Shown in pieces: positions 2,544 through 22,317 of a stretch of DNA of 22,317 nt. The DNA is from a virus: positions 1 through 22,317 of IMG/VR virus record IMGVR_UViG_3300017613_002427, one strand, 5' to 3'. Every line of letters starts with the position of its first letter. Within the stretch, counting starts at the first letter, position 1. A program made the position numbers and the translations under genes. The notes under the pieces are model-generated. The model made no database searches. It was not told where the DNA came from and worked only from the letters and a program-made list of their open reading frames with translations.

Positions 2544-3497
2544 ATGGATCCAAATGCAGCAACCCCAGACGTTAACACAGGTCCAGCCCCGTCAGCTGAA
2601 CCGGGCGTACCGGCAGCCTCGCCCGCTGCTATCGACGTTACTCCAGCCCCGTCAGCTGGAACAGATGTACCACCTCCAGAAACACCTCACGAAGAGAAGG
2701 TTCCCTATGAACGTCTAAAGGAGTCACTTGACAAGAACAAAGAGTTGCAGGCTCAGCTAGATGCCGCTCTTGGTGCCGCAGCAGGAGCACCAGAACCATC
2801 AGCTACTCCTGAGACACCGCCAGCTCAAGCTCCTCTCGACTGGGCTTCTCTTGGCTTTACTCCTCCAGCTGCACAGGAGGCAGTCCCCCAACAGATACAG
2901 CAAGGACCAATCTCAACACCTGAAGAAGTTGAACAACGGATACGGGACGATATGTATAACAAGCCTTATGCTACGTTTGCCCCGATAATAATCGAGCTGG
3001 CAAAGCAGGTTGTTAGCGAGCAGAAGAAAGCAGAGGCTCAAGTTCGTGGTATGCCGGGCTTTCAGCAAGTTGAGTCCAGTTACTACAACATACCCGATAA
3101 CGTTGTTCAGCAAGCTCAGAACAATCCAGAGGTTATCCGGTATCTCATTGCCAGAAATGCTAACCCATCAGCAGCACAGCCAACACCTCCTCCAAACCTT
3201 CAAGTCCCTCCAGCAGCTCTCCCAACGGCACCCATCTCAGATCCAAACAATCCACCGAAGACAATGGACGAGCTGAAGCAACAGTACATTGCCGAAGGTG
3301 AACGTTTGGCTCTTGAAAAGTTGAGAAAGCAGCAGGGACTTACAGCTGAAGGAGCGGGAAGCATTCCGTCAGCAGGAGGTGACAAACCTGAGCTTGATGC
3401 GGATGGCAAAGCGTTTATGCGTAAACTGGGGTTAGGTGAGGATAAATACGACAACGTAGCTAAGCGGCTGCAATTTTCTGGAGGTAATGACCGATGA
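2544..3497 (+). CDS. Capsid scaffolding protein
   Basis: A 317-aa soluble protein directly before the capsid gene, in the classic portal-scaffold-capsid order. It opens with about 45 residues rich in Ala, Pro, Thr and Ser, then a short predicted coiled coil (ERLKESLDKNKELQAQLDAAL). Low-complexity Ala/Pro/Gln linkers follow, with helical stretches (STPEEVEQRIRDDMYN and IELAKQVVSEQKKAEAQ). The C-terminus has the pattern DADGKAFMRKLGLGEDKY, common at the ends of phage scaffold-like proteins, and then a basic tail that could bind capsid subunits. The start is ATG 2544 with AAAGGAG at 2531-2537, 6 nt away. No Ser-His-Asp protease core is visible, so a fused prohead protease is unlikely. It ends in an ATGA overlap with the next gene. 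Confidence 0.75.
   Translation: MDPNAATPDVNTGPAPSAEPGVPAASPAAIDVTPAPSAGTDVPPPETPHEEKVPYERLKESLDKNKELQAQLDAALGAAAGAPEPSATPETPPAQAPLDWASLGFTPPAAQEAVPQQIQQGPISTPEEVEQRIRDDMYNKPYATFAPIIIELAKQVVSEQKKAEAQVRGMPGFQQVESSYYNIPDNVVQQAQNNPEVIRYLIARNANPSAAQPTPPPNLQVPPAALPTAPISDPNNPPKTMDELKQQYIAEGERLALEKLRKQQGLTAEGAGSIPSAGGDKPELDADGKAFMRKLGLGEDKYDNVAKRLQFSGGNDR
2582..2658 (+). repeat. 17-bp direct repeat in scaffold linker
   Basis: TCCAGCCCCGTCAGCTG occurs at 2582-2598 and again at 2642-2658, exactly 60 bp apart and in frame. It encodes two PAPSA segments (GPAPSAEPGVP and TPAPSAGTDVP) of the Pro/Ala-rich N-terminus. This looks like an in-frame duplication in a disordered linker. Confidence 0.8.
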
Positions 3498-18464: not shown

Positions 18465-19079
18465 ATGGCAGGACACAATCCAAGCTTTGTCATGAAAGAC
18501 AGAACGATAGATTTTGAGGAGGATATAAGCCGGCATTGTAGTGGTAGGATAACACCTCACGATGCTGAATTGCTTTATAAGACAGCGATGGATATCAAGC
18601 CAAAAACTATTCTTGAAATCGGCTGTATGGATGGTTGTTCAAGTATGCTTTTTGGTATGATAGCCCAGCTGACAGAGGGAAAGGTTCAGAGCATCGAGCC
18701 CATACAGAAGAAGAACTGGCTTGATAATATAGCAAGGCATAACCTTCAGGATTACGTCGAGATGTTTATTGGGCGTTCCCCGTGGATCCCTATAGAAAAG
18801 ATCAACAAGCCTATCGATTATCTCTTCATCGACGGAGATCACCGGACTAGATGGGCAATAGTAGACTATCATTACTGGTGTGAGTATGTCAGGATCGGCG
18901 GCATGATTGCTTTCCATGACTGGGGGGATCCACGTCCTTATCCGGGAGATTGCGTAAGGGAAGCAGTTGAGATTATCTTACGTGATGACTCAGAAATGCT
19001 TAAGAAGGCAGGGGAGTCTAAAAACAGGAGAGGAACTATCGTTTTCGAGAAAATATCGAACAAGAGGAAACATGTATGA
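18465..19079 (+). CDS. Class I SAM methyltransferase (Methyltransf_24-like)
   Basis: A 204-aa Rossmann methyltransferase. Motif I ILEIGCMDGCSS is at 49-60, an acidic ribose-binding residue in SIEPI (E78), motif IV-like DYLFIDGDHRTRWAIVDYHY at 118-137, then GGMIAFHDWGD (145-155). The FIDGDH...HDW set is typical of the Methyltransf_24 / cephalosporin-hydroxylase-like group, which methylates sugars and small molecules, sometimes metal-dependently. It begins a new translational unit with the best SD in the window (AAGGAGG, 18454-18460, 4 nt from ATG). It ends in an ATGA overlap with the GT-MTase gene, so the cassette is coupled from here. Confidence 0.75.
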   Translation: MAGHNPSFVMKDRTIDFEEDISRHCSGRITPHDAELLYKTAMDIKPKTILEIGCMDGCSSMLFGMIAQLTEGKVQSIEPIQKKNWLDNIARHNLQDYVEMFIGRSPWIPIEKINKPIDYLFIDGDHRTRWAIVDYHYWCEYVRIGGMIAFHDWGDPRPYPGDCVREAVEIILRDDSEMLKKAGESKNRRGTIVFEKISNKRKHV

Positions 19080-20395
19080 AAGAAGATCCACGATTAGATA
19101 AGCTGGGTATCCTGATAACTTCTCACCCTAAGCAACAGAAGTTCTGGAAGTATGGTTTGGGGTCATGGGAAGGGTGTCCGCTCTTCCTGCTGATGGGGTA
19201 CGACGATGAGAACACTGACGAACTCCCTCTCGACCAGATTATGCCGCCTGTAAACGAGATGTTCGTAACTGGCCGGCCGAAAGGCCATATAGGTCATTTT
19301 AAGGGTGAGCTGGTACAGATGAGACAGGGCGGGCTGCTCTTGCAGGAGAAAGGCTTCGAGTATATCTTTAAGACAGCTGCTGATACTGAATGGTGGAGAT
19401 GGAGAAACCTTCAGAAGATGTGGAGGGAACTAGGTGATAACGATTTCATCTATAAAGGGACAACCGTGCTCTTCGGACGTCTGGATGCTTTTAACAAATG
19501 CATGGAGCTGTGGGACAAAAGGCCGAAATGTGGAGGGGCGGAGCTTTACTTTAATAGTCAGGTAAGAACGCTTGGGATAAAATACGACATAAGAGGTGAC
19601 TCTTTCTGGCAGCCCTTTTTGGGGAGATCTCACACTCAAGGAGAGTATGCCCTAAACAATGATATAAACGTTACAAACACGTGGACGGTGGGCCAAGTGT
19701 GGGGGGAGGACTATAAGCATAAGGACATTAGTAGTCTGGCAAAACAAAAGTCCTCTACCCTAATATTAGAGGCAGCAGGCAGAAGAAAAGACGACGTAAG
19801 AAAGATCAAAGAGCTGGGGAAGTGGTATCAGACTATTCATTTAGACGATGAGCTAAGCACTCCCGGCGCAAAGAACTTTGGTGAGCCGACATGGGAAATG
19901 ATGGAGCCGTTTCTCCCGGACGTAAAAGGGAAGTGGGTTCTTGATATCGGTTGTAATGCAGGATGCTTCTCCTTCCATCTGTGTCGGAAAGGCGCAAAGA
20001 GTGTGTTAGGAATAGATGCTAGTGAACGATATCTTGCGCAGGCCCGTTTTGTGAAAGAGTATCTTGAGCAGAAAGAGGGACGGGAGTATCCGGTTGAGTT
20101 CTCGCAAGTCAAGCTTCAGTTTGAGAAGGAGCCTAATATTCTTGACCATATCCAGCACAGCTTTCCCGTTGTCTTTCTCAGTGCTTTCATTCATCATGTG
20201 AAACCGGTAGAGAAAGTAGCTGAAAAACTGTTTGGCCTTGCTACCCAATCGCTTGTTGCGTGGCTGGTTGTGGACAAAAATCGGACAGATCTGGCATTTA
20301 TCAAACTGGCTGGCAACTTGGGCTGGAAGGTTGCTCACGACGGGTCATCACCGAAGCGAAAAAGATATTGTATGGTGTATGAAAAAGTCAGGTAG
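19076..20395 (+). CDS. Second glycosyltransferase - methyltransferase fusion
   Basis: A 439-aa protein. Residues 1-215 resemble a GT-A glycosyltransferase: GILITSHPKQ at the start, HFKGELVQMRQGGLLLQEKG (74-93), FEYIFKTAADTEW with an A-D-T-E in place of DXD (94-106), then FIYKGTTVLFGRLDAF and ELYFNSQVRTLG. Residues 248-439 are a methyltransferase of the CmoB/Methyltransf_9 type: KWYQTIHLDDELSTPG (249-264), motif I VLDIGCNAG (288-296), SVLGIDASERYL (309-320), VVFLSAFIHHV (365-375). CmoB itself carboxymethylates tRNA, but the family also includes sugar methyltransferases, more likely here given neighbours. It is a different combination from the 5649 fusion. It begins with an ATGA overlap. Confidence 0.65.
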   Translation: MKEDPRLDKLGILITSHPKQQKFWKYGLGSWEGCPLFLLMGYDDENTDELPLDQIMPPVNEMFVTGRPKGHIGHFKGELVQMRQGGLLLQEKGFEYIFKTAADTEWWRWRNLQKMWRELGDNDFIYKGTTVLFGRLDAFNKCMELWDKRPKCGGAELYFNSQVRTLGIKYDIRGDSFWQPFLGRSHTQGEYALNNDINVTNTWTVGQVWGEDYKHKDISSLAKQKSSTLILEAAGRRKDDVRKIKELGKWYQTIHLDDELSTPGAKNFGEPTWEMMEPFLPDVKGKWVLDIGCNAGCFSFHLCRKGAKSVLGIDASERYLAQARFVKEYLEQKEGREYPVEFSQVKLQFEKEPNILDHIQHSFPVVFLSAFIHHVKPVEKVAEKLFGLATQSLVAWLVVDKNRTDLAFIKLAGNLGWKVAHDGSSPKRKRYCMVYEKVR

Positions 20396-20408
20396 ATCTT
20401 TTAGGCTG

Positions 20409-20837
20409 ATGGAAAACCACCTTGAGATAACAGGCGCTTGTGATCCATTAAGCTGGGGCGATGTTTGGAGAAAGGTAAAGAGAATAGAGAGAGGCAAAGA
20501 ACTCAAGATGTGCTCACACGTAGATCCTTTTTTGGCAATTAATATAAACCTGAGAACGAAGCGGGACGATGCAAGGATTTTGAGAAATCTGGATAATCGC
20601 TACTATAAAGGGGCAGCGTTAGGCCAGCTGTTTCAGAAGTTGTTTGCAAGCATAAAGAAAGAGGGAGTGTTGACCCCGGTATGGGCTTATACCTTGCCAG
20701 AGGATCATGAGTATTGGAGGAAGAGGAAGAAACAGTATAACCCCAAAGCTTATGTGGTTGAAGACGGCAGGCATCGAACGGTAGTTTGCCAGTTCTGGGA
20801 CATCCTAGTGCCGGCGTTTATCTTAGTAGCTCAATAA
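20409..20837 (+). CDS. ParB/sulfiredoxin-like small protein in glycan cassette
   Basis: A 142-aa protein from ATG 20409 (MENHLEITG). An in-frame ATG at 20379 (MKKSGRSF, 152 aa, overlapping the previous gene by 17 nt) is also possible; neither has a good SD. It contains HVDPFLAININLRTKRDD (37-54), LDNRYYKGAALGQL, IKKEGVLTPVWAYTL (82-96) and YVVEDGRHRTVVCQFW (115-130), ending in PAFIL. The I-x-x-x-G-V-x-x-PV...V-x-DG-R-HR succession is the ParB N-terminal (ParB/Srx) fold signature, where the GxRR/HR motif binds phosphate or nucleotide. There is no HTH domain, so it is not a partition protein. Its place suggests a nucleotide-dependent role with the transferases. Confidence 0.6.
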   Translation: MENHLEITGACDPLSWGDVWRKVKRIERGKELKMCSHVDPFLAININLRTKRDDARILRNLDNRYYKGAALGQLFQKLFASIKKEGVLTPVWAYTLPEDHEYWRKRKKQYNPKAYVVEDGRHRTVVCQFWDILVPAFILVAQ

Positions 20838-20856
20838 ATCGAGAGGAGGAAAAAGT

Positions 20857-21870
20857 ATGAAAGTAGCGTTCTTTGGACCGTGGATCGGTGAGTTTGGCTG
20901 GGAGTTAATGACATGGCAGGCATGGTGCAGGAAGAAGTCTCGTGAGTTTGATAAGTCCTACGTTTGCTCCTTTCCTGACATGGAGCCACTCTACAAGGAC
21001 TTCGCTGAGTTCATCCCTCATGACCACGAAGGCCGAGCTCTTGACTGGCATAAGGTCGAGAATATGGAGAAGTGTAAATATGAGGTACCTGACGACGTGA
21101 CAGATAAGTTCTTGCCTCCGAAGAAGTATGTGGTTGATGGTGAGTTTATCAAGTTTGGCGATCGGTCTGGCAAACGTCATCCATACGAATATCTTATTCA
21201 TGCTCGTGGCATAGGTAGAGGAGGGAAAGATTACCCTCTCGATCTATGGAAGAAGATTGTATCAGGTCTACCACCGGGCAAAGTAGCGTCAGTTGGCACA
21301 CTAAGAGACCACCATATCGAGGACACGGTAGATCTTCGGACGGTTGATCTCGACAATCTCATGTTTTATCTGTCAGGAGCTACCTGTGTAATCGGGCAAT
21401 CGTCCGGCGTTATGCATCTCGCTACTCTTTGCTGTGCTCCTATCGTTGTCTGGGGGGATCCCAAGACATACTTTAACGAAACTCTTGACACTCGTTACAG
21501 GAAAACGTGGAACCCGTTTAAGACGCCTGTAAAATTTATCCCTGACGATAACTGGAAGCCGGATCCTCAACGGGTTGTTGATAGTGTGCTTTCTAAAGCT
21601 CTCCCGGTACCTGCACCAGTGAAACTCGAAAAGGTGGGAGATTATCCTCCGCAAGAGATCAAAGACAGGGTGATGGCTGCGGTAGATTCGGGTAGATATC
21701 TCATGACTATATCGTATAAGAATGGGGCTGGCTTAGAACACTTTACAATTACAAAAAACTTTCAAGCTGATGACATTCTCCCATCTATGGACGAAGTAAT
21801 TAAACAGCTCAAAACTAAGCACCTTGGCTCTCAGAAACCAAAGAAAGTAGAGGTAGCTTCATGGCGATGA
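20857..21870 (+). CDS. GT9-like glycosyltransferase with C-terminal extension
   Basis: A 337-aa protein starting MKVAFFGPWIGEFGWELMTW. The GEFGWEL...WQ start replaces the usual GT9 D-x-x-x-x-TP-x-I-x-x-L. Middle and C-terminal features fit GT-B heptosyltransferase-like enzymes: EYLIHARGIGRGGKDYPLDL then WKKIV (nucleotide-sugar lobe), VASVGTL, DLDNLMFYLSGATCVIGQSS and GVMHLATLCCAPIVVWGD (183-200), the SGxxHLA-type donor-binding loop. Residues 263-325 form an extra alpha/beta domain (RVMAAVDSGRYLMTISYKNG, TITKNFQADDILPSMDEV). SD GAGGAGG lies just upstream of ATG 20857. It overlaps the next gene. It probably transfers a sugar to a surface glycan; donor and acceptor are unknown. Confidence 0.7.
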   Translation: MKVAFFGPWIGEFGWELMTWQAWCRKKSREFDKSYVCSFPDMEPLYKDFAEFIPHDHEGRALDWHKVENMEKCKYEVPDDVTDKFLPPKKYVVDGEFIKFGDRSGKRHPYEYLIHARGIGRGGKDYPLDLWKKIVSGLPPGKVASVGTLRDHHIEDTVDLRTVDLDNLMFYLSGATCVIGQSSGVMHLATLCCAPIVVWGDPKTYFNETLDTRYRKTWNPFKTPVKFIPDDNWKPDPQRVVDSVLSKALPVPAPVKLEKVGDYPPQEIKDRVMAAVDSGRYLMTISYKNGAGLEHFTITKNFQADDILPSMDEVIKQLKTKHLGSQKPKKVEVASWR

Positions 21871-22317
21871 CAAAGGTAGAGTTTCATAGTGGGCTGGCTG
21901 TAGGCGACACGCTTATGGTGACATGTGCGATAAGAGATCTTAAAACATCATACCCAGACAAGTATCTGATCCGGGTAAAGACGCTTGCCCCTCACATATG
22001 GGACAATAACCCAAATCTGTCTGAGTTTGATGATCCCGACATGGTTGTTGAGCTCGGTCCTAAACGGTTTGTACAAGGCTCCCAGACACGTGGTTTACAT
22101 TATGCAAACGCTTTCAGAGAGTCGATGGAGCATAATCTGAATATCCCTATCCGGCAGGGACATATCAAGCCGGATCTTTATTTAAGCGAAGAGGAGAAGG
22201 CAGATAAGATCGTAGATGGCCACTACTGGATTATTGTAGCTGGCGGCAAGCCTGATTTCGGGACAAAGATATGGCCGCCAGAATACTGGCAGGAGGTTAT
22301 CGATGCTTGTCCTGAAA
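21861..22317 (+). CDS. GT9 / heptosyltransferase-like protein, 3' truncated by window
   Basis: Open from ATG 21861 to the window end (152 codons, no stop). I chose 21861 (MAMTKVEF) rather than ATG 21867 because GAGG at 21850-21853 is 7 nt away. The sequence follows the GT9 N-terminal half: VEFHSGLAVGDTLMVTCAIR, LKTSYPDKYLIRVKTLAPHI, WDNNPNLSEFDDPDMVVEL, then HYWIIVAGGKPDFGTKIWPP and EYWQEVID, the KxWP-x-E-x-W segment that begins the donor lobe in heptosyltransferases. The first 10 bp overlap the preceding GT gene, so the two are coupled. A pair of different GT9-like enzymes could build a disaccharide. The catalytic C-terminal half is outside the window. Confidence 0.7.
   Translation, partial: MAMTKVEFHSGLAVGDTLMVTCAIRDLKTSYPDKYLIRVKTLAPHIWDNNPNLSEFDDPDMVVELGPKRFVQGSQTRGLHYANAFRESMEHNLNIPIRQGHIKPDLYLSEEEKADKIVDGHYWIIVAGGKPDFGTKIWPPEYWQEVIDACPE

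Follow-up and report, generated by a model that had tools for sequence, protein, structure and literature searches.

A glycan-modification cassette runs into genes for poly-serine proteins

The DNA analyzed here is the whole of IMG/VR virus record IMGVR_UViG_3300017613_002427 (22,317 bases; hereafter the window), and the system in question is a cassette of five closely spaced plus-strand genes, among them glycosyltransferase (GT) and methyltransferase genes, that lies 3' of a putative receptor-binding gene and runs off the window end (Table 1). An earlier note on this sequence had described the cassette as a phage-borne glycan toolkit of five consecutive, tightly packed genes behind the receptor-binding protein. 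The reading frames and their junctions (-4, -17, +19 and -10 nt, in order, with 26 nt between the receptor-binding or fibre gene and the first cassette gene) agree with this description, and the toolkit is real, intact and conserved. The last gene is completed in L002, part of a 43.8-kb contig found in a search for relatives, which shows one mismatch to the window in 11,461 bases (99.99% identity). There it encodes a 692-amino-acid (aa) protein with a GT9 and a GT4 half (the GT9-GT4 protein) and is followed by genes for a 946-aa, a 96-aa and an 866-aa protein, a CxxCxxCC protein, a 236-aa protein and then an amidase. Because of these following genes, the cassette can be placed inside a structural-to-lysis module, not at a module edge. 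The 946-aa protein contains approximately 525 residues of serine-rich tract, and the 866-aa protein combines a LamG domain with several serine tracts; in both, the tracts are of the type (SSSSSSSSI)n. The poly-serine gene starts 123 nt past the GT9-GT4 gene in L002, and the same physical order is found in L003, a locus from a 79-kb contig.

Table 1. Features of the cassette and associated genes in the window (open reading frames; full-length last gene from L002)
Feature	Position	Strand	Remarks
Putative receptor-binding/fibre protein, 331 aa	17443..18438	+	Function by position only; upstream border of exchanged segment
Cassette gene 1: Methyltransf_24 methyltransferase, 204 aa	18465..19079	+	PF13578, 5.6e-15
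Cassette gene 2: fusion of GT-A-like glycosyltransferase and S-adenosylmethionine (SAM) methyltransferase	19076..20395	+	GT-A-like ~residues 1-210; methyltransferase ~270-439
Cassette gene 3: small gene, 152 aa from ATG 20379	20379..20837	+	Overlaps preceding gene by 17 nt
Cassette gene 4: GT9-like glycosyltransferase, 337 aa	20857..21870	+	Conserved core gene 1; motif GPWIGEFGWE
Cassette gene 5: GT9-GT4 glycosyltransferase	21861..22317 (open)	+	Conserved core gene 2; truncated at window end; complete in L002:11005-13083 (692 aa)
Second GT-methyltransferase fusion, 432 aa	5649..6947	+	In head gene module; Methyltransf_23, 1.4e-15

GT9-GT4 genes are associated with poly-serine proteins

IMG/VR viral contigs were scanned for the GT9-like and GT9-GT4 families, and the resulting sets of loci were scored for poly-serine proteins, defined as reading frames of at least 100 aa with at least 40 residues in windows of at least 60% serine within the fetched flanks (~10 kb); this tract definition was set after the first cases had been seen. 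A poly-serine protein was encoded on 21 of 32 GT9-GT4 contigs, compared with 0 of 24 contigs with the GT9-like gene only and 1 of 117 other viral loci, the latter being non-poly-serine controls that were drawn by an unrelated low-complexity pattern and are on average shorter. The single control match (L140) may be a spurious reading frame. Three contigs were omitted from the GT9-like-only group because two of them (L012 and L015) have a GT9-GT4 homologue elsewhere and the third (L031) resembles L015; with them the count becomes 2 of 27. When only loci of at least 10 kb were considered, the proportions were 19/29 and 0/49, and when the GT9-GT4 proteins were grouped at 60% identity, 14 of the 15 groups included a contig with a poly-serine protein. 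In L054, L060 and L067, the poly-serine gene is preceded, at a distance of 4 to 56 nt, by a pair of GT-A-like genes.

The tracts themselves make use of all six serine codons, which argues for selection on the protein, not DNA slippage. Their interrupting residue is mostly isoleucine in L002, L003 and L004, and the serine runs are nearly always of even length (195 even and 13 odd in five proteins; L002:13207-16047, L003:13237-16710, L004:13581-16256). An origin of the even runs from alternating AGY and TCN codons was rejected, as the codon class does not alternate and shows no parity effect; the even-length rule seems to act on the protein. On other contigs the interruptions are mainly arginine, leucine, cysteine or lysine, and the preference for even lengths is weaker or not seen. 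The domains that flank the tracts are mostly unrelated to one another. One tract protein, in L050, is a recognized phage tail protein (phrog_1101, 1.6e-47), of which L064 encodes a nearly identical homologue, and in L063 a tract protein follows apparent portal and capsid genes, as judged by gene order only. The longest tract, of approximately 1,400 residues, is found in L048, where a 2,553-aa protein (L048:13307-20965) with ~1,300-1,400 serine-rich residues is encoded 649 nt from the GT9-GT4 gene. A very large phage contig (L077, 548 kb) encodes three poly-serine proteins in a row; its GT9-GT4 homologue lies elsewhere on the contig, and stop codons break up the part that was matched. Searches of the literature gave nothing relevant on poly-serine proteins of phages.

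A conserved glycosyltransferase pair borders an exchanged segment

The GT9-like protein of L003 is 76% (tblastn) or 78% (global alignment) identical to that of the window and its GT9-GT4 protein 88%, and the structural genes are conserved as well. In the stretch from the fibre gene to the GT core, however, L003 carries different genes in place of the window's decoration genes: a GT-A-like gene, an unassigned gene (a sulfotransferase when guessed by eye, confirmed by no library), a Methyltransf_24 gene, a second GT-A-like gene and a radical SAM gene. A third combination is present in L004, which shares with the window a Methyltransf_24 protein at the same place as the window's (55% identity) and the GT-A domain, which is not fused to a methyltransferase in either L003 or L004 (46% in L004). 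Ratios of nonsynonymous to synonymous substitution (dN/dS) between L002 and L003 were 0.07 for the GT9-like and 0.06 for the GT9-GT4 gene versus 0.20 for an fn3 tail protein and 0.11 for the receptor-binding protein, all of them approximate with synonymous sites near saturation. The GT pair is thus under stronger purifying selection than the tail genes, and relatives exchange the genes that precede it. On several contigs, radical SAM proteins are encoded next to GT genes (L003:9069-10004, L007:10652-11563, L068:6475-7410, L049:10673-11617).

Genes for sugar chemistry occur on related contigs. Methyltransf_24 was detected on 19 of 21 GT9-GT4 contigs versus 2 of 16 controls, and DegT, a nucleoside diphosphate-sugar aminotransferase, on 10 of the 21. 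L005 has a GmhB-GmhA fusion upstream of its two-GT core (L005:5469-6578; phosphoheptose isomerase model 7e-48, below the curated cut-off), accompanied by genes for a GDP-fucose-synthase-like protein and for RmlC, and L057 encodes a rhamnosyl O-methyltransferase family protein (8e-56) and a Sulfotransfer_2 protein. The earlier note had pointed past the window end for nucleotide-sugar genes. Relatives do have them, as DegT and the single GmhB-GmhA fusion illustrate, but the sequenced contigs of the window's own lineage do not: the L002 contig yielded no gene for DegT, an epimerase or GmhA.

Domain composition of the cassette proteins

In the fusion protein encoded by the second gene, the C-terminal half is a SAM methyltransferase (Pfam Methyltransf_9, 2e-12; Methyltransf_12, 8e-9). 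The N-terminal half has no Pfam GT match; its predicted structure is of the GT-A type (model from 27 sequences, pLDDT 77.7) and matches SpsA and 3cgx in Foldseek with E ~1e-6. The third gene had been labeled ParB-like, but searches of Pfam, PHROGs, NCBIfam and PDB sequences gave this label no support and matched no family at all; its ATG reading frame is in the same frame as a TTG reading frame at 20232-20837. GT9 matches of the fourth protein are weak (Pfam 0.058; NCBIfam heptosyltransferase I 0.019), and its GPWIGEFGWE motif is invariant in 18 relatives. The full-length fifth protein matches GT9 above the cut-off (3.5e-6), and its GT4 half, as a model, matches GT-B structures. Four cysteines (C247, C303, C311 and C325) are invariant in 19 sequences of this family, the model being poor between C247 and C303. 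Many GT9-GT4 proteins of the L046-L068 group are longer than 692 aa (~900 aa or more), and the alignment consensus has a methyltransferase-looking insert between the GT9 and GT4 parts. No obvious membrane segment was detected in the cassette proteins, the top 19-residue hydropathy being 1.65, in the small gene.

The fusion in the head gene module matches phrog_1574 (3.5e-19) and phrog_34859 (glycosyltransferase, 4.8e-10) with its N-terminal half and is a methyltransferase in its C-terminal half. A 56% identical homologue occupies the corresponding position in L037, which is the head module of the L003 contig. The fusion is putatively linked to the cassette. Its acceptor may be a head protein. 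With this fusion included, five GT domains, the GT4 domain lying beyond the window, and three methyltransferase domains were counted, in keeping with the at least four and three that had been proposed. The Shine-Dalgarno duplex of the first cassette gene (-10.9 kcal/mol) had been called the strongest in the window; it is among the strongest, but that of the fourth cassette gene is slightly stronger (-11.3 kcal/mol) and that of the gene at 3494 comes near (-10.6 kcal/mol). The putative receptor-binding protein upstream of the cassette is 58% identical (tblastn) to its counterpart in L003, partially matches L004, and matched no Pfam family.

Neither the GT9-like nor the GT9-GT4 protein had a match in 50,697 phage records, and no isolated phage relative was found for the two GTs or the portal; the fusion matched phage isolates through its methyltransferase part only. 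A scan of 84,980 bacterial and archaeal genomes with a single peptide pattern gave one relative of the GT9-like family, on a 150-kb contig of a Hydrogenophilaceae metagenome-assembled genome that may be a binned phage.

A predicted O-glycosylation system for virion proteins

Taken together, the gene order, the poly-serine association, the unrelated domains flanking the tracts, the conservation of the GT pair, the sugar genes and the lack of an obvious membrane protein favor a particular reading of the locus: the cassette is probably a phage system for cytoplasmic O-glycosylation, in which the poly-serine proteins encoded directly downstream serve as acceptors of a variable, methylated glycan. 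From the gene content we infer the serine acceptor, the sugar, the order of the steps, the location in the virion of this phage and the benefit to the phage as follows. The sequence itself shows the cassette leading into the GT9-GT4 gene and then into two genes whose products carry long (S)nI tracts. In the proposed scheme, the GT9-like and GT9-GT4 enzymes would transfer the first sugar or sugars, perhaps a heptose or a deoxy- or aminosugar, onto tract serines and then extend them, and the GT-A domain and the methyltransferases would extend and cap the glycan. Relatives would vary it by swapping in other methyltransferases, sulfotransferases, radical SAM proteins, aminotransferases and epimerases. 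The glycosylated tracts, in tail or fibre proteins, could form stalks or shields that are stiff, resistant to proteases and variable in their chemistry.

Several observations weigh against this reading. It is drawn from genes, the glycan itself being predicted, and no sequence match to TibC or to other serine-glycosylating enzymes was found. The contigs are phylogenetically related, so the Fisher p-values of the association (1e-7 against the GT9-like-only contigs and 1e-16 against the other viral loci) overstate independence. L007 and L008, close relatives with the two-GT core, have no poly-serine protein in the fetched flanks. In a reverse test, 11 poly-serine contigs were found by a DNA pattern, independently of the GTs; only one of them had a GT9-GT4 homologue, and poly-serine proteins therefore need not have this GT. 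The enrichment of GT2 among these contigs is only suggestive (5/11 versus 5/34). On three of them (L195, L196 and L203), GT2, GT4 and methyltransferase genes directly adjoin the poly-serine gene. Finally, GmhA, an enzyme of heptose synthesis, was found on only one of 50 contigs, which makes heptose a lead, not a conclusion.

An alternative is that the targets of the cassette are other proteins of the virion (capsid, decoration or tail-tube), glycosylated as a general shield, the poly-serine tracts being mere flexible linkers encoded nearby. Capsid glycans are described for mycobacteriophages (work cited in PMC11256854 and PMC12619734), the second fusion lies in the head gene module and some GT-core contigs lack poly-serine in their flanks; however, such a shield leaves the association of GT9-GT4 with tracts on unrelated proteins unexplained, and we regard it as unlikely. 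The earlier note had offered virion coating side by side with a change in host lipopolysaccharide (LPS). Coating is favored, and we think it improbable that the cassette alters LPS or another host surface glycan, thereby blocking superinfection or adsorption to debris. The GT9 family does include LPS heptosyltransferases, weak as the matches are here, and O-methyltransferases and nucleotide-sugar genes occur in LPS loci too, but the cassette encodes no membrane GT, flippase or anchor, and its genes are part of the structural module, with fibre-type genes before and the amidase after them, and are exchanged along with fibre-adjacent genes. The hallmarks of gtr LPS serotype conversion, the flippase GtrA and a membrane glycosyltransferase, are likewise absent from the cassette, in which no obvious transmembrane segment is encoded.

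It is more doubtful still, to the point of being very improbable, that the GTs glycosylate modified bases of the phage DNA against restriction. Viral GTs that hypermodify DNA are known (work cited in PMC12619734), and thymidylate-synthase-family genes are present on 4 of 21 related contigs, but none is on the sequenced, incomplete contigs of the window's lineage, a Tet/JBP search, made without a positive control, was negative, and the GT genes do not adjoin replication genes. The position of the cassette at the window edge could also suggest a host fragment at an assembly junction or a set of decaying passenger genes, either of which would have undermined the earlier note. Both were checked and neither occurred: independent contigs run through the cassette, the near-perfect match to L002 among them, synteny is kept in L003 and L004, the GC content of the cassette, overall and at third codon positions, has the values of the phage backbone, the catalytic domains are intact, and dN/dS is 0.06-0.07 for the GT core. 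This explanation can for practical purposes be set aside.

Beyond the O-glycosylation system proposed for this phage, we tentatively suggest a wider picture, which could well prove too broad: a widespread new class of phage structural proteins with near-homopolymeric serine stalks, to which a virus-specific GT9-GT4 enzyme adds dense O-glycosylation, and with a decoration segment whose exchange lets virion surface chemistry change. Phage virion glycosylation is documented in few systems, and none was found with serine-homopolymer stalks. If correct, uncultivated phages of a broad group make fibres that are glycoproteins and exchange the genes responsible for their decoration, with a bearing on host recognition, particle stability and the immune recognition of phages, and the cassette would be an O-glycosylation system complete in itself, acting on a simple and repetitive acceptor.

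Comparison with known glycosylation systems

Among viruses, the mycobacteriophage Che8 and its relatives carry glycans on virion proteins, and those on capsid proteins reportedly alter antibody binding (Freeman et al. 2023, as cited in PMC11256854 and PMC12619734). As here, the GTs are phage-encoded, and there they glycosylate virion proteins. The acceptors reported there are capsid and tail-tube subunits, however, and the GTs of the cassette are without a match in phage records. In the chlorovirus PBCV-1, A064R is a GT-GT-methyltransferase fusion that makes a methylated virion glycan on the capsid protein. By this general description it resembles the cassette in having a virus-encoded GT fused to a methyltransferase, although PBCV-1 is a virus of a eukaryotic alga.

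Closer parallels come from bacteria. The serine-rich repeat (SRR) glycoprotein loci of Gram-positive bacteria comprise an SRR adhesin, GtfA/GtfB and accessory GTs (PMC7948813). In these loci, as here, a serine-rich surface protein is encoded beside dedicated cytoplasmic GTs, and a long serine-rich repeat protein next to GTs is present in L002, L003 and many relatives. SRR loci also carry further genes that vary the glycan, as the cassette is predicted to do, and GtfA (rank 42) is one of the many GT-B structures matched by the GT4 half of the 692-aa protein. Unlike the SRR systems, the locus belongs to a phage and not a cell surface, has a GT9-GT4 fusion in place of a GtfA/GtfB pair, and has tracts of near-homopolymeric serine. 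No accessory Sec genes, which serve the export of the cell-wall-anchored SRR adhesins, were recognized among the annotated neighbors, the locus being a phage structural module.

In the TibC/AAH systems, those of the bacterial autotransporter heptosyltransferases, serines and not threonines are modified, by an enzyme with a four-cysteine iron finger (PMC4358343). The cassette likewise has a GT9-like GT-B enzyme with four conserved cysteines and, by our prediction, serine acceptors supplied by a neighboring gene, and one relative (L005) has heptose-synthesis genes, an indirect pointer to the ADP-heptose donor of those systems. The cysteines of TibC are at 339, 342, 358 and 370, as opposed to C247, C303, C311 and C325 here, and the phage protein has an extra GT4 domain. 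Membership by sequence was rejected, as TibC was absent from the PDB sequence matches of both the single protein and a 6-sequence profile at E up to 10. On the features examined, the GT9-GT4 arrangement is a member of neither the SRR nor the TibC/AAH systems, and it would work like both.

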